From: Pseudomonadota bacterium
Lineage (GTDB): Bacteria; Desulfobacterota; Desulfobacteria; Desulfobacterales; RPRI01
Length of the DNA stretch: 48,394 bases
NCBI GenBank assembly: GCA_018817425.1
Contig: JAHITX010000139.1
Coordinates: 1 to 48,394 of the forward strand
Reading direction: 5' to 3'
Position 1 is the stretch's first letter. Every line of letters starts with the position of its first letter. Made by a program: the position numbers and the translations under genes. The notes beneath the pieces were generated by a model that did no database searches, had not been told where the DNA came from, and saw nothing but the letters and a program-made list of their open reading frames with translations. Shown here piece by piece: positions 7,608 through 22,704 of the stretch.

Positions 7608-7623
7608 TGGCACATTTTAAGCA
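7608..7623 (+). promoter_or_regulatory. Sigma-54 (-24/-12) promoter
   Basis: TGGCAC at 7608-7613, five bases, then AAGCA at 7619-7623 matches the consensus TGGCAC-N5-TTGCA, with the essential GG and GC pairs at the right spacing and a perfect -24 box. It points towards the gene at 7710, about 75-80 bp downstream of the expected start of transcription. A sigma-54 activator is encoded divergently next door. Confidence 0.75.
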
Positions 7624-7709
7624 TAGGACATAAGGATTAGTTGGAAGTTGTTTTGTTGGCAAGAAGAAACGGGATTTGAAAAATTATACTGCTGAAGAAG
7701 GGGGTAAGG

Positions 7710-8624
7710 ATGTTTAACAAAACTTGTCTTTACGGTTTCATGATTCTTTTTATTGCCCTTGTTGCATATCCGGCCATGGCGGCAACGGATATTACCGTGC
7801 CTTCGAGCCAACAGTTAGAAAGTGGGACCGCTGGTGCCGTAGTTGATAATATGCAACTGCCGCCGGGATTCAACAATCCTAATCTTTCTGCAATTTGGGT
7901 GCAGGAAAAACTCATGCTTGTTGTTTTTTTTATTGTACTCATATATCTTATTCGTAATAGCCGTCGTGCCAGGGAGCTGACTTTCGGCACGCTGCTGTTC
8001 ATTGCCACAACAACCATGTTCTGGCAGGAACCATACGCTGATTGGGGCTGCTACCTGCTATTCAATCCAAAGCTTACTCTTATGCCCTGGGGTTCTACTT
8101 TGTGGACTTCACCAAACAAGCCCTTGAATCTGATCTGGCAATATGGAGCTTTTTTTGCCGGCATATATTCTGTAATGCTATGGCTTGTCAGAAAACTGCA
8201 TGCGCGGTATCCGCAATTGAGTAATCTCGGTGCGGTGCTTGTTATCGGTATTCCGATATTCTATCTCTTTGACTTGTTAGTGGAGGGACTTTGCGTAAAA
8301 AACGGCATTCACTCCTATATAAAACCTCTGATCGGCCCGGTGTTTGTTATGGCTAAGGGCAACTTTCCGCTTGTTTATCCGGTAGTGCCTTTCGTTTTTT
8401 ATGCCGTAATTACCCTATGGGTGTTGAGATTGCGAGCTGCAAACGGGCATGTGCGATTCGAATCATGGTTCGGTGCACAGCGTTTTGCTGCCGGTTGGCA
8501 GCGGGAACTGGCGCGTGTTATCATCTGGATTTTGGTCATGAATGGGCTTTATCTGCTTCTTTTCACGGGTCCTGCTGTTGCTATACGGGTGTTTCTTGGA
8601 GGGCCTTGCGCACTTGTGCCGTGA
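7710..8624 (+). CDS. AveC-like (spirocyclase AveC family) membrane protein 1
   Basis: A 304-residue membrane protein. It starts with a cleavable signal sequence (cut likely after AMA, about residue 24) and has about six membrane helices (near residues 50-68, 77-93, 130-155, 165-187, 215-235 and 268-292). The pattern of WQEPYADWGCYLLFNP, MPWGS and an NGIHSY segment between helices resembles the AveC-like family. The family was named for a spiroketal-forming polyketide enzyme, but most members are uncharacterised, so no reaction is claimed. RBS GGGGGTAAGG precedes the ATG. It is the first gene behind the sigma-54 promoter, and a related membrane protein follows 60 bp downstream. A role as membrane anchor or partner of the downstream oxidase is inference. 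Confidence 0.6.
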   Translation: MFNKTCLYGFMILFIALVAYPAMAATDITVPSSQQLESGTAGAVVDNMQLPPGFNNPNLSAIWVQEKLMLVVFFIVLIYLIRNSRRARELTFGTLLFIATTTMFWQEPYADWGCYLLFNPKLTLMPWGSTLWTSPNKPLNLIWQYGAFFAGIYSVMLWLVRKLHARYPQLSNLGAVLVIGIPIFYLFDLLVEGLCVKNGIHSYIKPLIGPVFVMAKGNFPLVYPVVPFVFYAVITLWVLRLRAANGHVRFESWFGAQRFAAGWQRELARVIIWILVMNGLYLLLFTGPAVAIRVFLGGPCALVP

Positions 8625-8684
8625 TTTGCTTTACCATTAAAAAGATTGATTATTATTTGAGTCGTGAGGAGGCTATCAAATATC

Positions 8685-9623
8685 ATGAAAGAGATAAGAA
8701 ATTATAGCATTTTAGGATTGTTACTGGGCTTATCTTTTCTGTTTTTTTGTAGCGGAATCTTGCAGGCTGAAGAAATAGCTGATTACGGGAACATATTTCC
8801 AATGCAAGTGGATCAATTAGCGTCCGATTCCATAATGATTTATCAGATTGTCTGGATGTCTGTAATACTCGCGGGCATAATCGCTTATGGGGTATATAGA
8901 CTCATACGCCATAAAGACCCGATACTACTCTTTACGATGGGTTCCGGGATTATAGCTTTTTTTAATGAGGGGAACCTTGAAGTACTTGTACATGTTACAA
9001 TGCCGGTTAACTCAATAATGCCTGTATACCAGGCATATGGAATAATCATGCCCTTTTGGATGCTCATTGGTTATACCGCTGTATTTCCGCTCTTGTCTTA
9101 TATTGCCTACAGTTATTTAAAAAAAGGACTGGAGACCAAAGGCTTTATCATTTTATGGGTTTTGTTTTGCCTATTTGACTTTGTAGCCGAAGTCCCAGGT
9201 GTCGCCATGGGGGCGTATGTATACCAACCGCCACAAATGCTGACATTTCTGGGTTTTCCGATATATAATATGTGGATAAACGGAACTTCATGGCTTTTTG
9301 GTGGTGTTCTGATGTACTTTTTTGTACCGATTCTGACGGGCTGGAAACGGCCTCTCATTTCACTTTTACCGTTCTTTGCGTTTGCCACAGGATGGGGTAT
9401 AATAGATGTCCCGATCGTAATCGCACTGAATTTTGCCGGAATGCCCGTCTGGGGCAAGTGGGTGCTGTGGTTTGTTTCGCTAGGGCTTAGCATCCTCATT
9501 GTAGTCACTCTGAATAGCATGGTCACGACAACTTCCAAGACAAGATGGAAATTGCCATGGGCTACATTGGATGCGGAGATAGCAGCAGAGGCATCGGTGA
9601 CTGCACCCGTCTTAGTCCGTTGA
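8685..9623 (+). CDS. AveC-like membrane protein 2
   Basis: A 312-residue protein with a signal peptide (cut near LQAEE, residues 26-30) and about seven predicted membrane helices. It has the same layout as the preceding gene: a short periplasmic start, then alternating helices with conserved aromatic and Gly-rich loops (FNEGNLEVLVHVTMP, GAYVYQPP, NGTSWLFGG). The ATG at 8685 is preferred over the GTG at 8664 because it begins directly with the signal sequence MKEIRNYSILGLLLG and leaves GAGGAGG (8666-8672) as the ribosome site, though the 12-nt spacing is long. The two genes look like distant paralogues and probably form one complex. The function is unknown. Confidence 0.6.
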   Translation: MKEIRNYSILGLLLGLSFLFFCSGILQAEEIADYGNIFPMQVDQLASDSIMIYQIVWMSVILAGIIAYGVYRLIRHKDPILLFTMGSGIIAFFNEGNLEVLVHVTMPVNSIMPVYQAYGIIMPFWMLIGYTAVFPLLSYIAYSYLKKGLETKGFIILWVLFCLFDFVAEVPGVAMGAYVYQPPQMLTFLGFPIYNMWINGTSWLFGGVLMYFFVPILTGWKRPLISLLPFFAFATGWGIIDVPIVIALNFAGMPVWGKWVLWFVSLGLSILIVVTLNSMVTTTSKTRWKLPWATLDAEIAAEASVTAPVLVR

Positions 9624-9688
9624 GTCTTATGTTACAATTTAAATATTATAAAACGATTTAACCATTTATGCATAGAAAGGAGTAAAAA

Positions 9689-11134
9689 ATGAATGTAATG
9701 CGAGTCAAAGAACATCATCCATTGTATGGTGAATTGGCGATGATTGTTGGTTCCAAATTTACAACAGACAGCGACTTTGCTTTGTGGGCATATTCCCGCG
9801 ACTCAAGTCCTGTTCCGGGAAAGGTTCCGGGGATAATAGTAAGGCCCGGCAGCACCGAAGAAGTATCGGAGATCATCAAACTTGCAAATCTGACTCATAC
9901 TCCGGTAATCCCGCGGGGTGGAGGCGCTTCTATTTTTGGTTTTCCGGCAGGCATACCCGGAAGAAGTATAGTAATTGATACTACACGGCTGGACAAAATA
10001 ATTGAGATAAATGAAGAAAACATGACGGTAACAGCTGAGGCAGGCATCGGTGTTTGCGAGCTGGGAACCAAGCTGACCGAAAAGGGATATTATGCAAATC
10101 TTGTCTGGGCGCCCTATTATGCGGATACGCTCGGTGGCTTGATAGGCGGCGTTATGGGTGGAGGATGGTCGACGCGAACGCAAGTTGTGGGACCCAATGC
10201 GAATCATATACTGGGCATGAAAATAGTTACGCCCACCGGAGGCGTGATCCAAACCGGGGGAGGTCCGGGGACTAATGTGCATCGTAAAACCACCTTCATG
10301 CGTGATGGGGGCGGACCCGATACAACCGGTATATTCATCGGTGATGGAGGAACATTCGGCATCAAGACCGAAGTAACGCTTTCAATTTACCCCCTCGAAA
10401 CGGTTGCCAAACCAAGAGGCTTTCTTTTCAAGAGTTTTGACGATATCTGGAATGCCATGTCCAGGTTGATGGCGATAGAGCCCTTTCCTTATACTAATCT
10501 TGTCGGACTTGCACCCAATGCTACGGCGCTGTTTATGAAAGACCCATGTTGGGTTTTATTATGCTATACCAGAGGATATGAGGAAGAGGAGGTAACAGGC
10601 AAGATTAAGGTAGTAGATGAGGTTTGCAAGGCGGCAGGGGGTGAAATGGGTTCGGAAGCGATTCATATGCAGGCCAGTGCAGCCGGCACCGGAGAAATGT
10701 ATCGTGAAATGGGAAAGCTTGCTTCGATAGGTATGTGGGTATTTCTCGAGACGCATGTTCCCAAAGAAGATCTTCCGAGACTCTTTAACAAGTATGCTGA
10801 GCTGATTGATCAAAGATTCGAAGAAAAAGGCATAAAGGAATATGGCGGTGTCAGAATGGATGTTATGTTGCCTGTGGGGCACGGCGAGTGCTATCTTTCG
10901 ACAAATGTTTACTGGCAGGTTAATGTTCCGGAAGCAAGAAAGAAAGTTATGGAAATAGCTGACGAGTTTGTTAATGTCACGATAAATGACGGGCTGTTTG
11001 CAACAACCGCCCAGCGTATACCCGCCGGAGTTACAGGCGCCAACTGGTCACCTTCTTATTATGAATTCATGCGCACCTTAAAGAAAGCAATGGACCCCAA
11101 CAATATAATTAATCCCGGACATTGGGGTTTGTAG
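9689..11134 (+). CDS. FAD-linked oxidase 1 (GlcD-type, PCMH fold)
   Basis: A 481-residue flavoprotein. The FAD-binding PCMH domain (about residues 45-235) has the pyrophosphate-binding RGGG at 76-79 and the GGLIGGVMGGGWSTRTQ and GDGGTFGIKTEVTLSIYP segments. The FAD-oxidase C-terminal domain follows and ends in the standard MDPNNIINPGHWG. The family oxidises 2-hydroxy acids (glycolate, D-lactate) or phenolic alcohols; the substrate here cannot be read from sequence. RBS GAAAGGAG lies just upstream of the ATG. The next gene, 15 bp on, encodes an Fe-S reductase of the GlcF type, so the two should act as a dehydrogenase pair. It belongs to the sigma-54-controlled run. Confidence 0.9.
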   Translation: MNVMRVKEHHPLYGELAMIVGSKFTTDSDFALWAYSRDSSPVPGKVPGIIVRPGSTEEVSEIIKLANLTHTPVIPRGGGASIFGFPAGIPGRSIVIDTTRLDKIIEINEENMTVTAEAGIGVCELGTKLTEKGYYANLVWAPYYADTLGGLIGGVMGGGWSTRTQVVGPNANHILGMKIVTPTGGVIQTGGGPGTNVHRKTTFMRDGGGPDTTGIFIGDGGTFGIKTEVTLSIYPLETVAKPRGFLFKSFDDIWNAMSRLMAIEPFPYTNLVGLAPNATALFMKDPCWVLLCYTRGYEEEEVTGKIKVVDEVCKAAGGEMGSEAIHMQASAAGTGEMYREMGKLASIGMWVFLETHVPKEDLPRLFNKYAELIDQRFEEKGIKEYGGVRMDVMLPVGHGECYLSTNVYWQVNVPEARKKVMEIADEFVNVTINDGLFATTAQRIPAGVTGANWSPSYYEFMRTLKKAMDPNNIINPGHWGL

Positions 11135-11149
11135 AGAGGAGGAAAAGAT

Positions 11150-12328
11150 ATGCTAGAAAAATATCGATATAATGTTGCCAGATGTGCAAGGTGTGGTATC
11201 TGTCGGGCAAAATACTCTGAAAAAGTACGTTATGTTTGCCCCGTAAGGGAACATACCGGAGGATTTGAACATTATTTCAGCAGGGGAAGAGTTGCAGTTG
11301 CCGCGGGAATTCTGGAGGGCGCCATTGATTATTCTCCCGAGCTTGTTGAAGTGCTTTATACCTGTCTTGGATGTAAAAGTTGCGTGGAGCAATGCGGGTC
11401 AGTAGATATGAGAAACGGCAAATCCTTAGTTGATACGGCAAAAATAGTCCGGGAAATGAGAGAGGATGCGATTGCACTGGGGTTGGAACCTAAAATAATG
11501 CAGGAACTTCATGCTACCGTATCCAAAAACAAGAATACCTTCGGGGGAAGCCTGGAGGAAAAGAATAAACTGGCTAAAAAGTTTGAACTTCCTGATAAAG
11601 GAGATACTATCTTCTTTTCAGGGTGCTATGGCGTCTATCGTGATCGTAAAGAAGCAGAGGCTACAATAAAAATTCTCAAGGCTACAGGAGCCGCGCCTGC
11701 ATATCTGGCTGATAAGGAGTGGTGCTGCGGAGTAATGGAGTATTGGGGCGGCAATACCAAAGTGGCAAGAGATATGGCATTGCATAACATGGAAGCCTTG
11801 GATGCGGCAGGTGTTAAGACATTGGTAACCGCATGTTCAGGTTGTTTGGATACCATCAAGGATATATATCCTGAGATTATAGAAGACAAGCTTCCCTTCA
11901 AGGTTATTCACATAAGTGAATATCTTGCGGATCTGGTTAAAAAAGGGGAGTTGAAATTTACCAAAGAAATAAATAAAACTGTGACCTACCATGACCCATG
12001 CCATTTGGGAAGGCATGCAAGAATATTTGATGCACCCAGGAAAGTGATCGAAAGCATTCCCGGCATCACCCTTAAGGAAATGGAAAGAAACAGAGAGGCT
12101 TCCGGTTGTTGTGGTAGTGGCATAGGGGCTGTTAGGGCATTGGAACCTGATTTGGCATTGGCTATTACCAATGACAGAATTAAAGAGGCTGTAGCAACCG
12201 GCGCAGAAGTCCTTACATCGGCCTGTCCTATGTGTGTAGAACAACTTACGCTGGCAGGTAGAGCAGCGAAGGCTAAATTGGAATATATAAATCTTCCGGC
12301 ATTGGTAGCTGAGGCTATGGGACTGTAA
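11150..12328 (+). CDS. GlcF/HdrD-type Fe-S oxidoreductase 1
   Basis: A 392-residue protein with two N-terminal [4Fe-4S] motifs (Cys 12, 15, 18, 30, the last widely spaced, and Cys 72, 75, 78, 82). Two CCG domains follow: first FFSGCYG, EWCCG and CSGC; second DPCHLGRH, SGCCGSG and CPMC. CCG domains in HdrB/HdrD and GlcF bind an unusual [4Fe-4S] cluster or mediate electron and disulfide transfer. With FAD oxidase 1, 15 bp upstream, it forms a GlcD-GlcF-like pair that could pass electrons to quinone or to a lipoyl disulfide. RBS GAGAGGAGG precedes the ATG. The spread fourth Cys of cluster 1 differs from a normal ferredoxin motif. Confidence 0.9.
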   Translation: MLEKYRYNVARCARCGICRAKYSEKVRYVCPVREHTGGFEHYFSRGRVAVAAGILEGAIDYSPELVEVLYTCLGCKSCVEQCGSVDMRNGKSLVDTAKIVREMREDAIALGLEPKIMQELHATVSKNKNTFGGSLEEKNKLAKKFELPDKGDTIFFSGCYGVYRDRKEAEATIKILKATGAAPAYLADKEWCCGVMEYWGGNTKVARDMALHNMEALDAAGVKTLVTACSGCLDTIKDIYPEIIEDKLPFKVIHISEYLADLVKKGELKFTKEINKTVTYHDPCHLGRHARIFDAPRKVIESIPGITLKEMERNREASGCCGSGIGAVRALEPDLALAITNDRIKEAVATGAEVLTSACPMCVEQLTLAGRAAKAKLEYINLPALVAEAMGL

Positions 12329-12349
12329 TTTGGTTTCGGGTGTCAGGCG

Positions 12350-12382
12350 TCAGGTGTCAGAAACTAAACTGCTGACACCTGA
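12350..12382 (+). terminator. Intergenic hairpin within the gene run
   Basis: TCAGGTGTCAG (12350-12360) and CTGACACCTGA (12372-12382) form a perfect 11-bp stem with an 11-nt loop. No T-run follows, so it is more likely a transcript-processing or attenuating element, or a repeat, than a true terminator. It separates the AveC/FAD1/FeS1 block from the lipoyl-carrier block. Confidence 0.55.
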
Positions 12383-12426
12383 ACACTGAAAACTGATCCC
12401 TTATTTATATTTCGAAAGGAAAGAAA

Positions 12427-12867
12427 ATGGCAGAAATTAACGGATATGATATGCCCGATGATTTGCACTATCATAAGGAACACATCTGGGCCAGGGTTGA
12501 ATTCAAAAAAGTTAGAGTTGGAGTAACAGATTTTGCGCAGAAATCGGCTGGTGATATTGTATATGTCGACCTTCCGTTTGAGGGAGATGAAGTAAAACAG
12601 GGTGAATCATTCGGCAAGATGCAATCCGCCAAGTGGATCGGTGAGCTATATGCGCCAATTAGCGGTGAGATTATTTCAGTCAATGAGATCCTGGAAGGAA
12701 AACCGACATTGATAAACCAAAGCCCGTATGAATCCGGCTGGGTAATTGTTATCAAGCCAAGCAATCTTGAAGAAGAACTTAAGACTCTGATGACGCATGA
12801 GACCGGTTTGGCGGATTGGTTAAATGGAGAAATAGAGAGAGTTAAAGCTCAAACGGAAGGGGCGTAA
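12427..12867 (+). CDS. GcvH-like lipoyl carrier protein (LbpA-type candidate)
   Basis: A 146-residue single lipoyl domain of the glycine-cleavage H family. In GESFGKMQSAKWIGELYAP, Lys69 aligns with the lipoylated lysine of GcvH, where the usual motif is ESVKA; here it is QSAKW. The following SPxSGEIISVNE-type turn is conserved. No gcvT or gcvP lies nearby; instead it sits between two FAD/Fe-S modules and upstream of lipoate-assembly genes. That is the context of LbpA proteins, the dedicated lipoate carriers of sHdr sulfur oxidation. A role as diffusible dithiol/disulfide electron or substrate carrier for the neighbouring reductases is inference. CGAAAGGAAAG precedes the ATG. Confidence 0.88.
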   Translation: MAEINGYDMPDDLHYHKEHIWARVEFKKVRVGVTDFAQKSAGDIVYVDLPFEGDEVKQGESFGKMQSAKWIGELYAPISGEIISVNEILEGKPTLINQSPYESGWVIVIKPSNLEEELKTLMTHETGLADWLNGEIERVKAQTEGA

Positions 12868-12877
12868 AAAATACCTG

Positions 12878-14347
12878 ATGTCTGTATATGAAGATATAGC
12901 GGCAATTGTCGGTAAGGAAAAGATAAGCGAAAGCAATCTTGATCGTATTTGCTATAGTCATGATCTGGCCCCGCTGCCGGATGATTTGCTTAAGGGATTT
13001 GGTGTAGCTAAGCCTGATGTTGTTGTAAGGCCCGCCAATTTATCACACATTGCAGACATCATGAAATATGCTTTTCAAAAAAACATTCCCGTTACACCAA
13101 GGGGTGGAGGTTCATGGGGGCTTGGTGGAGTCCTGCCGATTGGCGGAGGCATAGTTTTAGATCTAAGCGGTATGAATCGTATTATAGAAGTAAACACTGA
13201 AGATGATTATGTGACGGTTGAAACCGGGACAGAGTGGAAACGTCTATCAAATGCCGTTGAAAAGTATGGCTTTCATCTGGGCGCTTGTCCTACAAGCGCC
13301 CCTGTTGCTACAATCGGCGGTTATATTGCAACAGGTGGTTCTTCCGGAATTGGTGTTTCCCAGCACGGGCCACTTGGTGACCATATAATATCTCTTAAAG
13401 TAGTACTCCCTGATGGAACGGTTATACAAACCAATCCTTGGGATTCATGGATTTTTGTTGGTTCGGAAGGGACTTTGGGAATAGTTTGTGAAGCAACTAT
13501 TAAAATATTTAAAAAAAATAATATGAAACATATGTTGTTTAGCTTTGACAGTTTTGATGCAGGATTGGAGGCTGTTATCAAGTTAAACGAAATAAGTCCT
13601 TATTATTATAACATCATGGATGAAGGCTTTATCGGATTGTTAAGAGAAAAAGGAAGCCGGTTACCTGAAAGTAAAATGATATTAGCAGTTACTTTAAATG
13701 ATATAAACGGTAAGTTGCAGGAAAAAGAAAAAGCAATAAACACTATTTGCCGTGGCACAAGATTATCCGATGAAATGGCAGAAGAAGAATGGGGAAACAG
13801 ATATAAAACAGCTCTTAGCATTAAAAGCCTAGGGCCGACACTATTGACTCAGGAGATCAGACTTCCTGCAAGGTTCCTGGGACAGGCGCTTAATGAGTGG
13901 AAAACCGTTTTAAAGGGAAAAAGATTCGCTTTCAAAGGTGTCTGTAGTGATAATGGCGCCATAAGTGTTTTTCCTGTAGTACTGACAGATGAAAGAGAAA
14001 AATATGAGTTTATGAAGACCCTTTCTTATACCCGTGAAATAGCTGAAACAGGGAAAAAATATCATGGCGCAGTTTATGGGATTGGGCTTTTCAACTCAAA
14101 CCAGATGGCAGATATTCATGGCAAATCACTTGATGTAATGAAAGAGATAAAAAGGACTTTAGATTCAAAAAACATACTTAATCCGGGCAAAACAGTTGAA
14201 AGCAGAATCCCTGATATCTTTTTGTCTCTTGTTTTTATATTGATGAAACATGCGACGCCTCTTTTTGCTTTTCTTGCAAAAAGTGCAAATCGCCTTCCGG
14301 ATAGTTTTATAAATAATTCTTTAAAGCTTCTAAAGGGCAGAAAGTGA
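12878..14347 (+). CDS. FAD-linked oxidase 2 (GlcD-type)
   Basis: A 489-residue flavoprotein of the same fold as FAD oxidase 1 but only distantly similar. The PCMH domain has RGGG at 75-78, VATIGGYIATGGSSGIG and FVGSEGTLGIVCEA. The FAD-oxidase C domain ends with LDSKNILNPGK. About 45 extra residues then follow, rich in Phe, Leu and Ile (FLSLVFILMKHATPLFAFLA), a likely membrane-association helix absent from oxidase 1. It starts 10 bp after the lipoyl-carrier gene, and its stop overlaps the GTG of the next gene by 4 bp, so it is translationally coupled to Fe-S reductase 2. The substrate is unknown; a 2-hydroxy acid or related compound is the family expectation. Confidence 0.9.
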   Translation: MSVYEDIAAIVGKEKISESNLDRICYSHDLAPLPDDLLKGFGVAKPDVVVRPANLSHIADIMKYAFQKNIPVTPRGGGSWGLGGVLPIGGGIVLDLSGMNRIIEVNTEDDYVTVETGTEWKRLSNAVEKYGFHLGACPTSAPVATIGGYIATGGSSGIGVSQHGPLGDHIISLKVVLPDGTVIQTNPWDSWIFVGSEGTLGIVCEATIKIFKKNNMKHMLFSFDSFDAGLEAVIKLNEISPYYYNIMDEGFIGLLREKGSRLPESKMILAVTLNDINGKLQEKEKAINTICRGTRLSDEMAEEEWGNRYKTALSIKSLGPTLLTQEIRLPARFLGQALNEWKTVLKGKRFAFKGVCSDNGAISVFPVVLTDEREKYEFMKTLSYTREIAETGKKYHGAVYGIGLFNSNQMADIHGKSLDVMKEIKRTLDSKNILNPGKTVESRIPDIFLSLVFILMKHATPLFAFLAKSANRLPDSFINNSLKLLKGRK

Positions 14348-15456: not shown

Positions 15457-15459
15457 AAA

Positions 15460-16263
15460 ATGAATAAAATACTTACATGGATAGATACTGAAATTGTTGA
15501 GTTAAACGGCGACGCTACTATTAGCGAGGTAAATGCCGAACTGGGAGAATATTGTCTTCCTGTTGAGCCGTTGAGCGAAAAAAAAACAATCAGCAGCTTT
15601 ATTAAAGAAGGTGGGATAGGTTACAATTCTTTGCATAACAAAACTCTTGGTTCTTCATTATTTGAGTTGTCCTCAACCTTTTCGGCAATAAAATTTACTT
15701 ATGGCAGTAAATATAAAACACTTTATAATGCCGGTTATCCATTGCACAGGATTATTGAAGGCCCATCATTTTCAAAAGAACTGTCTGATAAATTTGATGG
15801 GATAGAAAATATAGTATTGCCTGTCAGGAAAAATAAAGAAGTAGAAGTGCTTTTTCATAATGGAAATCTTGATCAATTCCATCAAAACCAAATCCCTGAC
15901 AATGCATCCAATATTTTTTTTATTAATGATTTTGGCGCTAAACTTATGGGTTTGGAAGGCGAAGGAATTGTTACAACTTATCTTAATCCAGGGGAAAAAA
16001 GTCTTAAATCAAATATGAAAATCTGGGAAAAAAGATTTCTGGAGGATCTGATTCCTGATGATCATGATACCATAAAGTTTCTTACAATGAACAGCCGCGT
16101 TCCGGAAATATATAAGGTTTTTAATGAAAACTCACAAGGTCTTTTTTTTGCTTTAAGCGTGCATAAAGGCATCCTTCTTTTGATGTCCGGGGCAAAAAAA
16201 CAGCTTGATACCGTATGCGAAAATATTCGAAGTATTCCTCTGACCTTTGAAATAGGGGCTTGA
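15460..16263 (+). CDS. Half-size FAD-oxidase-like protein (GlcE-like, degenerate)
   Basis: A 267-residue protein with no obvious domain at first sight. Its N-terminal 110 residues align with the second half of the PCMH FAD domain. MNKILTWIDTEIVELNGDATISEVNAEL corresponds to the MNRIIEVNTEDDYVTVETG region of oxidase 2, KTISSFIKEGGIGYNSLHNKTLG to the ATIGGYIATGG segment, and YPLHRIIEG to the FVGSEG turn. The first beta-alpha-beta part with RGGG is absent. GlcE of glycolate oxidase is likewise a shortened relative of GlcD, so this may be a third, structural subunit of the 12878-15456 dehydrogenase. It starts 3 bp after the reductase stop and overlaps the next gene region. The rest of the protein (110-267) was not recognised. 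Confidence 0.55.
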   Translation: MNKILTWIDTEIVELNGDATISEVNAELGEYCLPVEPLSEKKTISSFIKEGGIGYNSLHNKTLGSSLFELSSTFSAIKFTYGSKYKTLYNAGYPLHRIIEGPSFSKELSDKFDGIENIVLPVRKNKEVEVLFHNGNLDQFHQNQIPDNASNIFFINDFGAKLMGLEGEGIVTTYLNPGEKSLKSNMKIWEKRFLEDLIPDDHDTIKFLTMNSRVPEIYKVFNENSQGLFFALSVHKGILLLMSGAKKQLDTVCENIRSIPLTFEIGA

Positions 16264-16265
16264 TA

Positions 16266-17825
16266 ATGAAAAATTGGCGCTTATTGGATACGGGAGTCTT
16301 GAGTGCAGCTGAAAACATGGCCTTAGATGACTTAATATTAGAAGCGAGAAGTAAAGAACTTGTTCCAAATACTCTTCGTTTTTTACAATTTAGCCCACCA
16401 GCAGTCCTTGTTGGCTACTATCAAAGTGTAGAGCAGGAAATCAGAACAAGTTATTGCAGAGAACAAAGCATTGATATTAACAGACGAATGACCGGGGGCG
16501 GAGCTATATTTTTTGATCGTTCCCAGCTTGGGTGGGGAATATATGCTTCCAAAAAGGAATTAGGAGCTGCAAATCCTGAGATATTATTTAAGAAGATATG
16601 TCAGGCTGTTATCCTTGGGTTAAAGAGGTTTGGTATTGATGCTAAATATCGTCCTAAAAACGATATAGAAGTAGCAGGTAAAAAGATTTCCGGGACAGGA
16701 GGAACTGAAGAAAAAAACGCATTTTTGTTTCAGGGAACCTTACTTATGGATTTTGACGTGGATACCATGTTAAAATCCCTTAGAATCCCTACAGAAAAGT
16801 TAATGGATAAAGGGATAGAATCCGCCAGGGAACGCACTACAAGTCTTAAGTGGGAACTGGGATACCTGCCAAAATTGAGCGAAGTAAAGGATGCGATAAA
16901 AGAAGGTTTTGAAGAAACATTAAAAATCAAATTTGCAGAAGAGGGCCTTACAGAATATGAACAAGGGCTGTTTAAAAATAAGATAGATAGATTTAAATCG
17001 AATGAGTGGATTTACCAAAGAAAAGGATCTGTTGAAAAACTTCCGATCTTAACCTCAAGTTACAGGACAAAAGGCGGATCAATTCAGGTCTCTTTAACGA
17101 TTAATGTTGAGACCAATATCATTCAGAGTGTTTTAATTACGGGTGATTTCTTTGCCCATCCGAAAAGCGCCTTATTTGATCTGGAAGCGACCTTAAAATT
17201 TACACGGGCGGAAAGAGCAAGAATACAGGAAGTCGTTTTTGATTTTTTTGAAAAGGGAAAGGGATTATTCCCGGATATTTCTCCCTCGGATTTCGTCGAT
17301 GCAATATATGAGGCGGTAAAAAAAGTTGAATGCTTAAAACATGGAATCTCTTCGCCTGAAGCTAACAGGATCTTTACCGTAAATGGTACTTTTGATCAGA
17401 TAATCAAAAAGAAACCATCTTACTTATTGCTTCCTTATTGCGCCAAGCTTGTTGATTGTGAACATAGACACAAAAGGGAGTGTGTGGACTGCGGGGAATG
17501 CAGTGTTGGAGATGCTTATCGTTTGGCAAATGAAAAGGGGTTAAATCCTGTTACTATTACCAGTTTTGAGGACTTGATGGAAACATTTGCCGATATGGAA
17601 TCTAAAGGGATAAAGTCTTATATCGGAAGTTGTTGCAGACAATTTTATGTCAAACACCGGAAGGATTTTGAGATGGCCGGGCTTTCCGGCATATTGATCG
17701 ATATTGAAAATACTACCTGTTATGAGCTGGGGAAAGAAAATGATGCCTATGTCAGTGTTTTTAAAGGTCAGACCGAACTGGATGCAGGATTGATCAGTAA
17801 GATATTAAATAGCTATCGACCTTAA
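16266..17825 (+). CDS. Lipoate-protein ligase fused to DUF116 domain
   Basis: A 519-residue protein with three parts. Residues about 1-240 form an LplA/BPL catalytic domain with RRMTGGGAIFFD and KNDIEVAGKKISGTGG, the lipoate/ATP-binding motifs. Residues about 240-330 resemble the accessory C-terminal domain of LplA (sLpl(AB) layout). Residues about 350-519 are a DUF116 domain with a cysteine cluster from Cys392 (LLPYCAKLVDC, ECVDCGECSVGDA, SCCRQFY) and may bind a metal cluster. The predicted job is to attach lipoate or octanoate to the GcvH-like carrier encoded 3.4 kb upstream. The ATG at 16266 follows directly on the upstream stop; a TTG at 16260 is also possible. The role of DUF116 is unknown. 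Confidence 0.88.
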   Translation: MKNWRLLDTGVLSAAENMALDDLILEARSKELVPNTLRFLQFSPPAVLVGYYQSVEQEIRTSYCREQSIDINRRMTGGGAIFFDRSQLGWGIYASKKELGAANPEILFKKICQAVILGLKRFGIDAKYRPKNDIEVAGKKISGTGGTEEKNAFLFQGTLLMDFDVDTMLKSLRIPTEKLMDKGIESARERTTSLKWELGYLPKLSEVKDAIKEGFEETLKIKFAEEGLTEYEQGLFKNKIDRFKSNEWIYQRKGSVEKLPILTSSYRTKGGSIQVSLTINVETNIIQSVLITGDFFAHPKSALFDLEATLKFTRAERARIQEVVFDFFEKGKGLFPDISPSDFVDAIYEAVKKVECLKHGISSPEANRIFTVNGTFDQIIKKKPSYLLLPYCAKLVDCEHRHKRECVDCGECSVGDAYRLANEKGLNPVTITSFEDLMETFADMESKGIKSYIGSCCRQFYVKHRKDFEMAGLSGILIDIENTTCYELGKENDAYVSVFKGQTELDAGLISKILNSYRP

Positions 17826-17857
17826 GACAAAGCTTAAGACCTATATGAAAGTAATTT

Positions 17858-17999
17858 GAGCCACTTTCAAAACGCCCCATTTTGGCCGATCTCTGCGTTG
17901 GACTCAAATTCCAATCCTCGAAATACTAAATGTATTCCTGTGGTTGAAATTTTCGACCGCCTTGAGTTTGACCAAACTGAAACGTTTTGAAAGTGGCTC
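17858..17999 (-). mobile_element. MITE-like element, copy B
   Basis: A 142-bp copy in the opposite orientation to copies A and C, with perfect 17-bp terminal inverted repeats (GAGCCACTTTCAAAACG). ATTT is duplicated at 17854-17857 and 18000-18003. The flanks joined without the element match 21586-21624 closely (15 of 15 bases on the left and 22 of 24 on the right), so that site is an empty-target relative. Confidence 0.9.
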
Positions 18000-18003
18000 A
18001 TTT

Positions 18004-18105
18004 GAATATCGAATATAGAACAAGGAATAATGAATGTCGAAGAAAAAGAATAATTTTGATATAGAGGATTATTCCCAAAGACAAAAACAGGAAGCATTCG
18101 TGGCG
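18004..18105 (+). repeat. Interspersed repeat GAATATCGAATATAGAACAAGGAA
   Basis: GAATATCGAATATAGAACAAGG at 18004-18025 recurs with two changes at 21601-21624. It is followed by a 25-codon open frame from the ATG at 18034 (MSKKKNNFDIEDYSQRQKQE), too short and unsupported to call a gene. Confidence 0.6.
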
Positions 18106-18315
18106 ATATAAAATGCCGCCCTACGGCAGATGATGTAGGGCGGGGATTTATACCACGCCAACTATTTCATAATTCGAAATTATTTGTTCGATATTGGATA
18201 TTCGTTTTTATAGATAAACTTCATAAATTAGGGGATTGCGGCGGAGTGTAATAACCCCCTTTGTCCCCCTTTTATAAGGGGGAATACAGTCCTGCCGTAG
18301 GGTGGCATTTTATAT
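18106..18315. repeat. 210-bp element with 24-bp inverted ends
   Basis: The left end (18106-18129, ATATAAAATGCCGCCCTACG then GCAG) and the right end (18292-18315) are inverted repeats matching at 23 of 24 positions. Inside are a 9-bp hairpin (CCGCCCTAC 18116-18124, GTAGGGCGG 18135-18143) and a CCCCCTT/AAGGGGG hairpin (18255-18282). No coding capacity. It ends 44 bp before the start of the flavoprotein gene and gives its false N-terminal extension. Confidence 0.6.
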
Positions 18316-18358
18316 GCCTCCAATTATGCTTGTAGTAAAAGTGTGGAAGATGATTGGA

Positions 18359-19444
18359 ATGAGGAATGAGAAGTTGAGTCAGATATTAAACTATGATTTA
18401 GTGATAATAGGGGCAGGACCTGCTGGTACAACTGCAGCCAGGGTTGCATCCGAGAAGGGAATTCGCACCTTAATTATCGAGAAGAAGGCTTGTATAGGAT
18501 CGCCGGTTCAATGCGCTGAACACATTCCCAAGCTATTGATGCAACAGGTTAATTTTAATAGCCGCTGTATCACTCAGGAAGTCGGTATGATGATAACATA
18601 CATGCCGGGAGGTGATGTAGTAGAAACAAAGGCGCCGGGGTATATAATTGACAGGTCGCTATTTGATAAAGGACTGGCCCTGGATGCAATCAGTAATGGT
18701 GCTGATCTGATGATCAAAACTATTGCTCTTTCCCGTAATAAGACAGGGTTAATTGCCAGAACGGGAAACAAAGAAATATGTATTGAGGCAAAAGTGATTA
18801 TCGGGGCTGATGGGCCAAACTCCACAGTAGGCGGATGGATAAACAGAAAAAATAAAGAATTTGTATCTGCCGCACAATGTGAAGTACTTCTCAATAAACC
18901 GATAGAAGCAACATGCATCTATTTCTGCATGGAATATATGGGTGGATATGGCTGGTTGTTTCCCAAAGGCAGAACGGCAAATGTTGGTGTAGGAATAAAC
19001 AATAAGATAGGCCGCATAAAACTATCAACATGTTTAAAACATTTATTGGATAGATTACAAAAGGAAGAAAAGATCAAAGACAAGAGCGCAGTTGCTTATA
19101 CTGCCGGGTTGATTCCGGTGGGCGGGTATCTTGATACCAGCCCACATGAAAACATATTGATAATTGGAGATGCCGCCGGACAGACAGATCCAATAACCGG
19201 TGCAGGCATTTCCCAGGCCATTTCCTGCGGAAAGATCGCAGGAGAAGTTGTTGCCAAAGCTATTCAAGAAAAGGATCTGACGCTTCTTGGTGAATATGAA
19301 AAAAGATGGAAGGGTCTGTTTCAAAGATCACTTGATAATGCTCATCAAAAAAGAAAGTTATTGGATAATCACTGGAAGGACGATCAATTAGATCAAATCT
19401 TGCGAAAGACATGGGTGGGCTTTGATGGGTATTGGAGAAAATAA
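18359..19444 (+). CDS. Geranylgeranyl-reductase-family FAD oxidoreductase (LipT-like)
   Basis: A 361-residue flavoprotein. The Rossmann motif DLVIIGAGPAG with EKGIRTLIIEKK opens the protein, CAEHI follows in the active-site region, and the second FAD motif ILIIGDAAGQTDPITGAGISQAI lies near residue 265. The family reduces isoprenoid double bonds in archaea. In lipoate-assembly loci a member called LipT occurs with LipS1 and LipS2 and is proposed to supply electrons. The ATG at 18359 has GGAAG nine bases upstream; frames open further upstream but run through a repeat, so longer starts are unlikely. It overlaps the following radical SAM gene by 20 bp. The LipT role is inferred from family and context. 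Confidence 0.8.
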   Translation: MRNEKLSQILNYDLVIIGAGPAGTTAARVASEKGIRTLIIEKKACIGSPVQCAEHIPKLLMQQVNFNSRCITQEVGMMITYMPGGDVVETKAPGYIIDRSLFDKGLALDAISNGADLMIKTIALSRNKTGLIARTGNKEICIEAKVIIGADGPNSTVGGWINRKNKEFVSAAQCEVLLNKPIEATCIYFCMEYMGGYGWLFPKGRTANVGVGINNKIGRIKLSTCLKHLLDRLQKEEKIKDKSAVAYTAGLIPVGGYLDTSPHENILIIGDAAGQTDPITGAGISQAISCGKIAGEVVAKAIQEKDLTLLGEYEKRWKGLFQRSLDNAHQKRKLLDNHWKDDQLDQILRKTWVGFDGYWRK

Positions 19445-20381
19445 AGATGTATCCGGGCTGCTGTCAGAAGCCAGAGAACTTTCCTGGGAAAAATGGGGAA
19501 AAAAAATAGATTTCTATCTTCCGGGGATGATAACCTTAAATAAAGAAAAAGGGAAATATCCTGCTATTTCAATTACCGGAGAAAGCTGCGAATTAAACTG
19601 CGACCATTGTGGCGGTAAACTTTTAAAATCCATGATTCCTGCTACCACCCCGGAGAAATTGGTTGAAAGATGCATAAAGATAAATGAGTCTGGCAATTCA
19701 GGTTGTCTGATCAGCGGCGGTTGTCTCAAAAATGGGAGAATACCGTGGGAGCCTTTTATTGATGCCATTTCTGAAGTTAAAAGACTTACTGACTTAAACA
19801 TATCTATCCATTCCGGTCTGATAGATCTTGAAACGGCCAAAAGATTCAAGGATGCAGGAGTAGATCAAGCATTAATTGATGTAATCGGAGACGATGAAAC
19901 CTTTAAGAACGTTTGCCACACAAATGCAGGTATTGAATCAATAAAAAATTCATTAAAGGCTTTAAAACAGGTAGGGATTCCTATCGCCCCTCATATTGTT
20001 GCAGGTTTAAACTATGGAGAGATTAAAGGGGAATGGGATGCATTAAAGATGATAGCCGAATTTGAACCCCCGATTTTGGTTATTGTAGTATTAATGCCTT
20101 TGGCTGGAACCCCGATACAAAATGTATTACCGCCTGATCCATCTGAGGTGGGAAGGCTCATAGCTATGGCAAGAATAAAGATGCCAAATACCCTGATTTC
20201 ACTAGGTTGCGCCCGCCCGCGAGGAAAGGTAAGCGAAGAATTGGAAGTTCTGGCTATAGATTCAGGAGCAAACCGGATCGCTATCTGGTCTGATGCAGCG
20301 ATAAAAAGAGCAAAGGAATACGGCTTAGAAATCGAATTTCATAAGACTTGTTGTAGTATTACAGGAGGGGCTTGTGTCTGA
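19425..20381 (+). CDS. Radical SAM protein, LipS1/LipS2-type lipoyl synthase candidate A
   Basis: A 318-residue radical SAM enzyme. The cluster motif is CELNCDHC (CxxxCxxC, Cys near residues 54, 58, 61), followed by the GG region SGGCLKNG. A C-terminal TCCSITGGAC offers further cysteines for an auxiliary cluster, as needed for sulfur insertion. It overlaps the LipT-like gene by 20 bp and the next gene by 8 bp. A pair of such radical SAM proteins (LipS1, LipS2) replaces LipA in the newer lipoate route, each adding one sulfur to the octanoyl chain. Which of the two this is cannot be decided here. No LipA-type protein is encoded in the window. Confidence 0.78.
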   Translation: MGIGENKDVSGLLSEARELSWEKWGKKIDFYLPGMITLNKEKGKYPAISITGESCELNCDHCGGKLLKSMIPATTPEKLVERCIKINESGNSGCLISGGCLKNGRIPWEPFIDAISEVKRLTDLNISIHSGLIDLETAKRFKDAGVDQALIDVIGDDETFKNVCHTNAGIESIKNSLKALKQVGIPIAPHIVAGLNYGEIKGEWDALKMIAEFEPPILVIVVLMPLAGTPIQNVLPPDPSEVGRLIAMARIKMPNTLISLGCARPRGKVSEELEVLAIDSGANRIAIWSDAAIKRAKEYGLEIEFHKTCCSITGGACV

Positions 20382-20730
20382 GTGTACTGGTTGTATGGAT
20401 TGCGAAAAAGTGTGTCCCCTCACTCCTTTCGGTTTTGGAATCGGCAATATAATCAGAAAGCATCTTGCCGGAAAAGAAGAAGATCTTATTGATACTAAAG
20501 AGATATGGCATTGTACCATGTGCTTTGCCTGCGATGATGCCTGCCCAACAGACTTTAGGCCCAGAGACCTTATGATTAGTCTTCGGAGAAGATCCGAAAA
20601 TTACCCGAAAGCTTATAAAAGATTGATAGCCGGGATAATAATTTCCGGTAATGCTTTTTCCATGAAAGAAAAAGAAAACAATGATTATTTGCAATTGTTT
20701 GAGATATGTATGCCCAAGGACTTTCAATGA
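20374..20730 (+). CDS. HdrC-like ferredoxin protein
   Basis: A 118-residue protein with two [4Fe-4S] motifs, Cys 4, 7, 10, 14 (CTGCMDCEKVCP) and Cys 47, 50, 53, 57 (CTMCFACDDACP), the layout of heterodisulfide reductase subunit C. The GTG at 20374 follows GGAGGGG at 20363-20369 and lies inside the end of the radical SAM gene. It overlaps the HdrB-like gene by 4 bp (ATGA). It should transfer electrons to that HdrB-like partner. No HdrA is present, so the electron donor is open. Confidence 0.88.
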   Translation: MSECTGCMDCEKVCPLTPFGFGIGNIIRKHLAGKEEDLIDTKEIWHCTMCFACDDACPTDFRPRDLMISLRRRSENYPKAYKRLIAGIIISGNAFSMKEKENNDYLQLFEICMPKDFQ

Positions 20731-21566
20731 AATACGCTTTTTTCAGAGGTTGTATTATACCTTACAGGCTTTCATATTATGAAATTTCCGCCAGAAGAGT
20801 ATTGACAAAATTAGGCATAGAACTGGTTGATCTTGATTTTGGTTGCTGCGGTTCACAAATGCTTGAATCAAGAAATGAGGATTTATGGCTTGCGGTAGCC
20901 GCAAGAAACCTTGCCATAGCGGAAAGTAAAAATTTGGATATATTGACTCTTTGCGGAAGCTGCACCAATACCTTATCCAGAGCAAAGCAGCTAATGGAAA
21001 GTGATATGGACAAAGCTCACCATGTGAAGCAGATTCTAAGAAAAATAGGGCTTGAATTCAATAACAAGACAAGGGTCATACATATTTTAAAACTTCTGGC
21101 TGAAGAAATTGGAATTGGGAAAGTAAAAAATCATATTAAAATAATCCTGGATTTTAAGGTTGCCATGCAGCATCCTTGTCAGATCTACCGGCCAGCCGAA
21201 ATAATGAATTTTACAAAAGATGCCGTTAAAGATTTTGCCTCTGGCTTTATATCTGAAATCTTTGATTTGAATGCCTGCTGCGGGGAAACTTTGATCGCTA
21301 CAAACCAGGATGCATGCATTAATATCTTGAAACAAAATCTGCAAACCTGTTTTGCCAAAGATATAAGTATGATTTTAACAGCCTGCGGAAATTGCCAGAT
21401 GACCTATGATGTAAATCAGATGGGATTAAAAGTAAAAGATAAAAATACAAAGACTCTGCCTTCCTTACCCATAACTCAGGCATTAGGAATTGCCATGGGA
21501 TATGGATATGATGAATTGGGGTTGAGGCAGAATATAATCAAGGTAGATAAAAAGATTTTCGGATAA
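20727..21566 (+). CDS. HdrB-like CCG-domain protein
   Basis: A 279-residue HdrB-family protein starting at the ATG at 20727, directly coupled to the HdrC-like gene. The start MKYAFFRGCIIPYR is the typical HdrB opening. CCG motif 1 is DFGCCGSQM with CGSC; motif 2 is HPCQIYRP, NACCGET and CGNC. HdrB binds two noncubane [4Fe-4S] clusters that split disulfides. In sHdr loci HdrB/HdrC copies accompany a lipoate-binding protein. Here the pair is nested between the two radical SAM genes, which suggests a role in lipoate assembly or in redox exchange with the lipoyl carrier (inference). Confidence 0.88.
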   Translation: MKYAFFRGCIIPYRLSYYEISARRVLTKLGIELVDLDFGCCGSQMLESRNEDLWLAVAARNLAIAESKNLDILTLCGSCTNTLSRAKQLMESDMDKAHHVKQILRKIGLEFNNKTRVIHILKLLAEEIGIGKVKNHIKIILDFKVAMQHPCQIYRPAEIMNFTKDAVKDFASGFISEIFDLNACCGETLIATNQDACINILKQNLQTCFAKDISMILTACGNCQMTYDVNQMGLKVKDKNTKTLPSLPITQALGIAMGYGYDELGLRQNIIKVDKKIFG

Positions 21567-21585
21567 CCTTCCCGGACAAGATGGC

Positions 21586-21657
21586 ATATGAAAGTAATTT
21601 GAATATCCAATATTGAACAAGGAAACAACCCCCTTAATCCCCCTTTGTTAAGGGGGA
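21586..21657 (+). repeat. Empty MITE target relative and CCCCCTTAA hairpin
   Basis: 21586-21624 matches the two flanks of MITE copy B with no insertion. A perfect 9-bp stem follows: CCCCCTTAA at 21629-21637 with TTAAGGGGG at 21648-21656. The hairpin could act in mRNA stability between the HdrB-like and radical SAM genes. Related hairpins are at 18255-18282 and 48311-48335. Confidence 0.7.
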
Positions 21658-21678
21658 ATGAATATCGAAGGAAGAAAT

Positions 21679-22704
21679 ATGGAACAACAAAGCCCTGAAT
21701 ACTTGAAGATGAGTATGGCTGCTGCATTAACTCTTGGTTTTAAAAATGGGCGTTTCTATAGAAATGCCAGGTTATATTGTATCAATTTGCTGCAAATTTA
21801 TTCCAATGGATGTACTGCTAATTGTGCATATTGCGGTCTTTCAAGAGACAGGTTAATTAATTCTAAAGAAAATAGTTTCATCAGGGTAGACTGGCCCATC
21901 TACGCTCTGGAAGATATCATAGAAAAGATGAACGCAAGTAAAAATTTGTTCAAAAGAATCTGCATCTCCATGATCACCAGAAAGAAGTCACCTCAAGATG
22001 CAGTTTACATTATAGAAAAAATAAGGGCCAAACTGGATACTCCCATCTCGGTTCTTATATGTCCTACAATTACCACGGAAGCTGATTTGCTTAAATATAA
22101 GGAAAGCGGTGCTGATAAGATAGGCGTAGCCATAGATGCAGCTACACCGGAGTTGTTCGATAAATACAGGGGCAAAGGAGTAAGAGGCCCTCATCGATGG
22201 GAACAGTACTGGGATACTTATCAGAAAGTAATTAAAATATATGGCGGCGAAAACTCCGGAGTTCATCTCATTGTTGGATTGGGTGAGACAGAAAAAGAAA
22301 TGGTCGAAACTATCCAAAGGTCATCCGATATGGGTGGAGGCACTCATCTCTTCTCGTTTTATCCTGAGCCTGGCTCACAAATGGAACAGCAACAACCACC
22401 TCCTGTCGGACAATATCGAAGAATTCAACTGGCCAGGTATCTGATTGATGAAAATATTACCGGCATCAATAATTTCGATTTCGATAACTTGGGACAGATA
22501 AAAGATTTTGGATTACCGGAATTTGAATTGAATCAAATTATTAATTCCGGGCTACCCTTTATGACCAGTGGTTGTAAAGGAAAAGACGGAATGGTCGCAT
22601 GTAACAGGCCCTATGGTAATTTTCCTCCTCCGAAGATAAGAAATTATCCCTTCCATTTGAAGACAGATGATATTGAGCTTGTAAATAAACAGTTGTGGTC
22701 ATAA
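21679..22704 (+). CDS. Radical SAM protein, LipS1/LipS2-type lipoyl synthase candidate B (BioB-like)
   Basis: A 341-residue radical SAM protein related to biotin synthase. The SAM cluster motif is GCTANCAYCGLS (CxxxCxxC, near residues 46-53); ICISMITRK, TEADLLKYKESGADKIGVAIDAATPELFD and GLGETEKEMVE follow the BioB-like barrel order. The C-terminus has SGCKGKDGMVACNRPYG with two more cysteines. The ATG at 21679 with GAAGGAAG upstream is preferred; one at 21658 in the repeat is possible. With candidate A, the LipT-like flavoprotein and the ligase it completes the gene set of the alternative lipoate pathway. Assignment to S1 or S2 is left open. Confidence 0.8.
   Translation: MEQQSPEYLKMSMAAALTLGFKNGRFYRNARLYCINLLQIYSNGCTANCAYCGLSRDRLINSKENSFIRVDWPIYALEDIIEKMNASKNLFKRICISMITRKKSPQDAVYIIEKIRAKLDTPISVLICPTITTEADLLKYKESGADKIGVAIDAATPELFDKYRGKGVRGPHRWEQYWDTYQKVIKIYGGENSGVHLIVGLGETEKEMVETIQRSSDMGGGTHLFSFYPEPGSQMEQQQPPPVGQYRRIQLARYLIDENITGINNFDFDNLGQIKDFGLPEFELNQIINSGLPFMTSGCKGKDGMVACNRPYGNFPPPKIRNYPFHLKTDDIELVNKQLWS

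Follow-up and report, generated by a model that had tools for sequence, protein, structure and literature searches.

An operon combining a GcvH-like lipoyl carrier with GlcD/GlcF-type and Hdr-type proteins, and a possible role for the carrier in electron transfer

The thiol:fumarate reductase TfrAB of methanogens joins a flavin subunit to a CCG subunit of the HdrD type and works with the thiols CoM and CoB. In sHdr sulfur oxidation the carrier is LbpA, a GcvH-like protein with two conserved cysteines near its N- and C-terminus, some archaeal LbpAs excepted (PMC6067878). The radical SAM proteins LipS1 and LipS2 are not confined to sulfur oxidisers: sHdr is absent from 58% of bacteria with LipS1/S2, as derived from a published figure of 42%, and the lipoate-assembly set, perhaps with its substrates, is proposed to have moved from archaea to bacteria (PMC10332631). 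In Culexarchaeia, the lipoyl disulfide of GcvH has been suggested to interact with HdrB (PMC9723716). Here we describe an operon from a Desulfobacterales bacterium (GCA_018817425.1, a 5.12-Mb draft genome, 99% complete) in which a GcvH-like lipoyl carrier stands among GlcD/GlcF-type flavoprotein modules, a lipoate-assembly set and HdrCB. It lies in contig JAHITX010000139.1 (C139 in our numbering), whose 48,394 nucleotides are the window analysed. This is a real, conserved system, and its larger point is that a group of carriers, marked by lysine-tryptophan (KW) at the lipoyl site, is tied to CCG enzymes and, at the level of whole genomes, also to LipS1/S2.

All 14 genes at 7710-22704 are on the + strand, in the order AveC-like, Mem2, GlcD1, GlcF1, carrier, GlcD2, GlcF2, an unclassified open reading frame (ORF), Lpl-DUF116, LipT-like, LipS1, HdrC, HdrB and LipS2. 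Every gene named in the original prediction, which was made from the letters of the DNA, was found in place on that strand, and the operon begins with two genes beyond its list, encoding the AveC-like protein and the unclassified, apparently membrane-embedded Mem2. The genes on which the argument turns are as follows.

9689..11134, + strand: GlcD1, a divergent FAD_binding_4 flavoprotein (PF01565, 97 bits)
11150..12328, + strand: GlcF1, an HdrD/TfrB-like Fe-S protein in which both CCG domains are complete (PF02754, 116.6 bits; all CCG cysteines kept)
12427..12867, + strand: KW-type lipoyl carrier, lipoyl lysine K69 followed by W70 (PF01597, 133.6 bits; alignment, predicted H-protein fold and tree)
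12878..14347, + strand: GlcD2, a flavoprotein like D-2-hydroxyacid dehydrogenases (PF01565, 125.8 bits)
14344..15456, + strand: GlcF2, an Fe-S protein with two complete CCG domains (PF02754, 118.8 bits; all CCG cysteines kept)
16260..17825, + strand: lipoate:protein ligase Lpl(AB) fused to DUF116 (PF21948, 159.7 bits; PF10437, 27.1 bits; PF01976, 35.9 bits; all above cut-off)
18302..19444, + strand: LipT-like flavoprotein of the GGR family (TIGR02032, 214 bits)
19422..20381, + strand: LipS1 (NF053742, 240.5 bits, above the cut-off of 230)
20374..20730, + strand: HdrC-like ferredoxin (Fer4 families)
20706..21566, + strand: HdrB-like CCG protein with two complete CCG motifs (TIGR03288, 161 bits, below the cut-off of 345)
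21658..22704, + strand: LipS2 (NF053743, 238.9 bits, best match, below the cut-off of 270)

The carrier scores above the gcvH profile cut-off (135.8 versus 115.85 bits), so that a profile search alone would label it GcvH. Its sequence matches in the PDB are of GcvH type only, and its predicted structure gave 22 PDB fold matches (E up to 0.001), all of them H-proteins or GcvH-like. Alignment identifies Lys69 as the lipoyl lysine. At this site the KW group shares the signature S-x-K-W-x-G, where E. coli GcvH reads ESVKAAS. We placed 103 carriers in a tree after removing the three columns that follow the lysine, together with rows that lacked a lysine at the aligned site, had fewer than 90 aligned residues or were at least 93% identical to another. 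The 52 GcvH-type rows form one branch (starred; 96/84), and outside it fall all 46 KW rows, three corrinoid-linked proteins of the host and the archaeal rows L185_7504 and L205. A place within ordinary GcvH would have refuted the original prediction of an LbpA-like protein; the window carrier branches apart from that GcvH clade and belongs to a starred group of seven (99/91) with those of loci L095, L112, L150 and L151 and with Euryarchaeota and Lokiarchaeota carriers. The KW rows as a clade by themselves are weakly supported (19/0), the columns being few and the bootstrap not settled. Archaeal and bacterial rows are interspersed in the tree, in keeping with the archaea-to-bacteria transfer proposed for the lipoate-assembly set (PMC10332631). 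KW loci bear the archaeal labels Euryarchaeota, Lokiarchaeota, Thorarchaeota, Bathyarchaeota, Thermoproteota/Thermoprotei, Methanoperedens, GoM-Arc1 and ANME-2, and the bacterial labels Desulfobacterales, other deltaproteobacteria, Zixibacteria, Chloroflexi, Bacillota and Spirochaetes.

The neighbourhoods of KW carriers differ sharply from those of other GcvH-like proteins. A scan of species genomes with the carrier alignment, covering the best 80 of at least 585 relatives, yielded 83 carriers, 32 KW and 51 other GcvH-like. An ORF with a CCG motif of the HdrB/D type lay within 6 kb of 23/32 KW carriers but of only 1/51 others (Fisher p 3e-12), and the contrast persisted among loci with at least 8 kb of flank (17/23 versus 1/40). 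GlcD was nearby in 14/32 versus 0/51 and a lipoate-assembly gene in 18/32 versus 4/51, whereas gcvP or gcvT adjoined none of the 32 KW carriers and 27 of the 51 others. The gcvP/T counts required 60 bits, which excluded a weak GcvPB match (22 bits) at L192, and the script missed carriers lying within longer wrong-frame ORFs, such as that of L044.

The pattern recurred in 395 genomes of the phylum. Scores of the KW model split into an upper group at or above 158 bits (85 matches in 64 genomes) and a lower group at or below 149. The upper group comprised 70 newly read loci and 14 read earlier, all KW, plus one unread (G259:C87:27138); the lower group was represented by 30 of the next-ranked 32 loci, G308:C27 and G153:C48 being left out. 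KW was present at the lipoyl site in 70/70 upper-group and 0/30 lower-group carriers. A CCG motif lay within 6 kb in 56/70 versus 2/30 and GlcD in 36/70 versus 0/30, and gcvP/T in 0/70 versus 17/30. Additionally, LipS1, counted at 141.5 bits or more (the next match scored 74.9), was present in 58/395 genomes. Both LipS1 and a KW-scoring carrier occurred in 54 genomes, LipS1 only in 4, the carrier only in 10 and neither in 327 (p 4e-51), so that 54/58 LipS1 genomes have the carrier and 54/64 KW genomes have LipS1. Of the four genomes with LipS1 only, three have a completeness of 62-82%. Counted by family, both occur in 15, LipS1 only in 2 and KW only in 2, the family-level test using an estimated 100-107 families. 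The p-values overstate the association because the genomes are related. The two genes are mostly unlinked: in 41 of the 54 shared genomes they are not within 15 kb of each other. At ten LipS1 loci without a nearby carrier the neighbours were, by eye, mostly housekeeping-like.

The original prediction read GlcD/GlcF twice, and two modules of that type are present; their identity as GlcD and GlcF proper did not hold, with GlcD1 and GlcD2 at 102 and 195 bits against an equivalog cut-off of 567.9, and GlcF1 and GlcF2 at 71 and 110 bits against 333. The top NCBIfam match of both GlcF proteins is TfrB (169 and 202 bits, below its cut-off of 385). The C...CC...CXXC motif is complete in both CCG domains of GlcF1, GlcF2 and HdrB. 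Across 12 aligned GlcF-like proteins linked to KW carriers, none of the eight ferredoxin-type cysteines and none of the ten CCG cysteines varied, whereas in E. coli GlcF an Ala and an Asn each replace one cysteine, one per CCG domain, leaving two of ten missing; this contrast rests on one E. coli protein, a small control. Because their CCG cysteines are complete, the window GlcFs look like disulfide-active subunits of the HdrD/TfrB type rather than plain electron wires. For GlcD2 the nearest PDB sequence matches are D-lactate dehydrogenase and glycolate oxidase. Those of GlcD1 are scattered over an unnamed oxidoreductase, D-lactate dehydrogenase and the VAO/PCMH family, and since GlcD1 is the more divergent and its matches spread over several enzyme types, its substrate need not be a hydroxyacid.

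The lipoate-assembly genes were also largely as predicted. Of the radical SAM pair named LipS1/LipS2, the former exceeds its cut-off, while the latter has the LipS2 profile as its best match yet stays under the threshold. The LipT-like label comes from the position beside lipS1 and the GGR match; no LipT profile was among the 25 best NCBIfam matches. Since a canonical LipA is encoded on host contig C59, LipS1/LipS2 would form a second pathway in this organism. A search of plasmid records with LipS1 returned 84 matches, all below 60% identity, and the named ones among the 25 listed were BioB. As for the predicted lack of gcvT/gcvP, the gcvP part is borne out genome-wide, there being no match to PF02347 in the host (G000) or in its relative G006, while gcvT was not searched genome-wide; 20 of 40 genomes searched, the host's own included, have PF02347.

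The host encodes three more GcvH-like proteins, with the motif ETSKAVREI, at L052, L053 and L054 (contigs C11, C47 and C122). Their clusters contain an apparent corrinoid protein, and some of them also UroD-type and MtrH-like methyltransferases and FAD proteins; on C59 (L148), LipA adjoins a UroD-like gene. GcvH-like proteins placed in apparent corrinoid methyl-transfer clusters are puzzling in a genome that gave no gcvP match. Two further proteins, of 307 and 329 aa (L051, contig C7), match GCV_H; as aligned, their lipoyl site lacks a lysine.

Linkage of the whole set is conserved in other genomes, as the original prediction required. In G006, of the same genus, the genes from GlcD1 to LipS2 occur in unchanged order (L039 and L147). 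In G170, from another family of the phylum, L095 has GlcF1-carrier-GlcD2-GlcF2-orf-Lpl-LipT-LipS1-HdrC-HdrB-LipS2, with a carrier 84% identical to that of the window; here GlcD1 is truncated by the end of the stretch and the GlcD2 region holds a masked run. In a partial version in G070 (L112), the place that HdrCB occupies in the window, between LipS1 and LipS2, is taken by a multihaem cytochrome. Beyond these, carrier-CCG linkage extends across phyla and domains. In a second layout (L040, L041, L042, L043, L114, L118-L120, L122, L124 and L133) the carrier accompanies an HdrD-like CCG protein and a membrane protein that is a multihaem cytochrome c/b fusion. E1/E2/E3-like and LipB-LipA genes are frequent neighbours, and some of these loci also include Lpl-LipT-LipS1-LipS2. 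L040 encodes a lactate-racemase-like protein (PF09861) and has three GlcD genes. Other redox partners differ by locus: NiFe hydrogenase (L149, L170), an HdrA-like fused flavoprotein (L152, 'HdrA-like' being our own reading of the domains), an MvhD-type protein with HdrCB (L166), ETF (L221), PFOR (L189), and lactate racemase with GlcD (L040, L153 and L174). In Zixibacteria SM23_81 (L160, 514-3408), a KW carrier, a lipoate ligase-like protein, a thioredoxin and a thioredoxin-reductase-like protein are encoded in a row, which may be a compact redox cassette. The labels E1, E2, E3, LipB, GcvT, GcvPB, corrinoid protein, MtrH and CrtI were assigned by eye; GcvPA, LipA, UroD, LarA, cytochrome c/b and FAD_binding_2 have profile support.

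Taken together, these results make it somewhat probable, in our judgement, that the operon encodes a dedicated lipoylated redox carrier and the enzymes that use it, with lipoyl serving as a protein-bound dithiol/disulfide partner of Hdr-type enzymes and tied to hydroxyacid-type flavoproteins. Lpl(AB) would attach octanoate or lipoate to Lys69, LipS1/LipS2 would insert the sulfurs, and the LipT-like protein would be the likely electron donor. The lipoyl disulfide/dithiol on Lys69 could then swap two electrons with the non-cubane CCG clusters of GlcF1, GlcF2 and perhaps HdrB. Each GlcD/GlcF pair would act like a thiol:fumarate reductase in which protein-bound lipoyl replaces CoM-SH/CoB-SH, such that oxidation or reduction of a 2-hydroxyacid, or something similar, is tied to reduction or oxidation of the lipoyl group. 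HdrCB may link the carrier with an additional donor or acceptor. Since the two modules would share a single carrier, electrons could even run in a short loop between them, to which HdrCB would give side access. The observations comprise the gene content, the KW signature, the conserved neighbourhood with CCG proteins, the co-occurrence with LipS1, the intact CCG cysteines and the lack of a gcvP match; lipoylation, the movement of electrons rather than of a substrate, its direction and the substrate are inferred. The original prediction had the carrier shuttling either electrons or a substrate fragment between GlcD/GlcF-type dehydrogenases, and we favour the electron half because an HdrB/D-type CCG protein is the most constant partner while other redox partners vary. 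More broadly, the bacterial and archaeal relatives suggest a widespread, little-noticed carriage of electrons on protein-bound lipoate. We see about an even chance that KW carriers are widespread, cross-domain, protein-bound dithiol/disulfide electron carriers that serve the Hdr-type CCG enzymes of non-methanogens as counterparts to CoM-S-S-CoB and DsrC, and that they are the main clients of LipS1/LipS2 outside sulfur oxidation, the window then being the hydroxyacid-flavoprotein version.

Several observations weigh against this reading. The potential of lipoamide is about -0.29 V and that of lactate/pyruvate about -0.19 V. Hydroxyacid oxidation therefore cannot reduce free lipoamide unaided, which puts the direction, or a potential tuned by the protein, at issue; dihydrolipoyl would more easily reduce a 2-oxoacid or a quinone than a hydroxyacid would reduce lipoyl. 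No quinone- or cytochrome-linked exit is evident within the window operon. In the 80-locus scan 9/32 KW carriers had no CCG motif within 6 kb, among them those of Methanoperedens, GoM-Arc1 and ANME-2. The same was true of 14/70 in the phylum set, 11 of them belonging to one sub-clade whose members neighbour LipS2 or Lpl. Some flanks are truncated at contig ends. Unexpectedly, local linkage to lipoate-assembly genes in that set was no higher for KW carriers (23/70) than for GcvH-type ones (8/30). Finally, the KW model (A2) derives from KW carriers whose selection rested in part on linkage to LipS; with the nine sampled genomes that supplied its rows excluded, the co-occurrence counts were 45 both, 4 LipS1 only, 10 KW only and 327 neither.

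Other roles for the carrier can be weighed against the same data. An ordinary GcvH, displaced from its usual neighbours and serving glycine cleavage, would account for the gcvH profile score and the H-protein-like predicted structure. It is scarcely credible given that neither the host nor its close relative G006 has a gcvP match, that K-W stands in place of K-A/S/T, and that the carrier lies outside the starred GcvH clade; with gcvP/gcvT beside 0/32 and 0/70 KW carriers in the two sets, we reject it. In Bacillus subtilis, GcvH relays lipoate to E2 subunits in the LipL pathway. A comparable modification scaffold, handing lipoate on to E2 subunits, might be suspected from the E1-E2-E3-like and LipB-LipA genes that adjoin several relatives (L041, L042, L043, L116 and L118). 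We regard it as quite improbable: no E2 gene is present in the window operon, and most KW carriers of the phylum set have a CCG protein as neighbour (56/70), with E1/E2/E3-like genes near only 1/70.

A carrier closer to LbpA in function, whose lipoyl group binds sulfane sulfur or an acyl or organosulfur fragment passed between the GlcD/GlcF and Hdr modules, as LbpA may do in sHdr, is harder to set aside, although we still hold it unlikely. The lipoate-assembly type (LipS1/S2, Lpl, LipT-like) is that of sHdr-LbpA loci (PMC10332631), and the CCG partners are Hdr-like. However, where LbpAs, some archaeal ones excepted, have two conserved cysteines (PMC6067878), the window carrier has none, and no LbpA-like pair is conserved among 120 KW carriers (17 with no cysteine, 79 with one). 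Nor was a TusA, DsrE or rhodanese domain found in the 15 window proteins scanned, and the lactate racemase, thioredoxin and hydrogenase neighbours in relatives suit electrons better than sulfur or fragments.

The remaining features of the locus concern its control, its first two genes and an interruption.

5907..7460, - strand: divergent sigma-54-dependent activator (Pfam Sigma54_activat, 232 bits; HTH_8; two copies 79% identical in L039)
7608..7623, + strand: putative -24/-12 promoter TGGCACATTTTAAGCA, two mismatches to consensus; its GG-N10-GC is kept upstream of the L039 operon
7710..8624, + strand: AveC-like protein, apparently membrane-embedded (PF17198, 56.6 bits)
8664..9623, + strand: Mem2, apparent membrane protein with no Pfam match (79% identical in L039; another copy in L147)
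15460..16263, + strand: Orf15460, protein without an assigned fold that recurs at other loci of this type (no Pfam match; 81, 64 and 36% in L147, L095 and L112)
17854..18016, no strand assigned: copy of a palindromic repeat of about 145 bp, lying within the operon (the host genome has at least 40, this one counted)

The original prediction placed the operon behind a -24/-12 promoter. As matches of this quality are at chance level across the window (23 observed, 24.6 expected), a sigma-54 promoter called from the consensus count alone was rejected. We nevertheless accept the element at 7608 as the likely promoter on two grounds, its position between the operon and the divergent activator and the recurrence of GG-N10-GC in the same-genus locus L039. 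There, the gap between activator and operon holds AGGCACGTTTTGTGCT and the gap beside the paralogous activator holds TGGCATGATTTAAGCT, both sharing GG-N10-GC with TGGCACATTTTAAGCA.

The predicted single co-oriented run is co-oriented throughout but not unbroken. Genes overlap or are separated by less than 100 bp, with the sole exception of 476 bp between Lpl and the LipT-like gene, where the palindromic repeat is located; the corresponding gap in L147 is 22 bp. Of 354 candidates scored, 40 were counted as copies of the palindromic repeat. Several host copies sit at contig ends, and the repeat is also found in L039, in the intergenic region ahead of Mem2. Counterparts of the AveC-like protein and of Mem2 (50% and 23% identity) are encoded elsewhere in the host genome, at 1689-5176 of L052, where they stand in a cluster that looks like one for corrinoid methyltransferases. 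This suggests that several catabolic clusters have a function in uptake or at the membrane in common. Orf15460 was considered as a GlcE or GlcD remnant and rejected (hhalign probability 2.6% against the GlcDs; nothing useful by BLAST against E. coli GlcD/GlcE); its AlphaFold model is of low confidence (pLDDT 55). On the minus strand, fragments at 4587-5787 resemble, by eye, a broken P-type ATPase gene. Rfam gave no RNA-element match in the window.

If the proposed role is correct, lipoate would gain an electron-carrier function beside its roles in 2-oxoacid dehydrogenases, glycine cleavage and sHdr, and the sHdr-LbpA theme would widen past sulfur oxidation. Two questions become testable: what LipS1/LipS2 lipoylate in bacteria without sHdr, and which thiol/disulfide is used by the HdrB/HdrD-like CCG enzymes of non-methanogens. 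One small family with a simple signature offers an answer to both. The original prediction held the gene combination to be undescribed. In the open literature, with most subscription papers outside it, we found no account of GlcD/GlcF together with a lipoyl carrier and LipS1/S2, and neither lipoate nor GcvH terms occur in PMC10553843 or PMC3949148; the GcvH-HdrB idea (PMC9723716) and LipS1/S2 beyond sulfur oxidisers (PMC10332631) had, however, already been published.

Among known systems, sHdr-LbpA shares with the window a GcvH-like carrier, Hdr-type CCG proteins, a dedicated Lpl, LipS1 and, putatively, LipS2 and a LipT-like protein (PMC6067878, PMC10332631). It differs in that the window has hydroxyacid-type flavoproteins instead of an HdrA-based sulfur system and a carrier without the LbpA cysteine pair. 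Moreover, the window Lpl carries a DUF116 domain, a possible further difference, relatives of the window also use LipB-LipA, and against the sHdr set HdrC1B1A plus HdrC2B2 the operon has one HdrC, one HdrB and no HdrA (the operon only; the rest of the genome was not searched). The Culexarchaeia Ehe cluster likewise has GcvH with HdrBC and a suggested lipoyl-HdrB interaction, but belongs to one archaeal class and contains a NiFe hydrogenase module, and no GlcD/GlcF-LipS operon or KW signature was seen in the text available (PMC9723716). The glycine cleavage H protein has the carrier's fold and lipoyl lysine but neither its KW signature nor its partners, and the window carrier has no P-protein. 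E. coli GlcDEF likewise has FAD_binding_4 and CCG Fe-S subunits, from which the window proteins depart in scoring far below the equivalog cut-offs, in their complete CCG cysteines and in the added lipoyl carrier; Pfam recognised no third, GlcE-like subunit among the window proteins. TfrAB, finally, combines flavin and HdrD-type CCG subunits as the window does, and its TfrB is the best NCBIfam match, below cut-off, of GlcF1 and GlcF2; in the window, however, the flavin subunit is GlcD-like and the proposed thiol partner would be protein-bound lipoyl in place of CoM/CoB.

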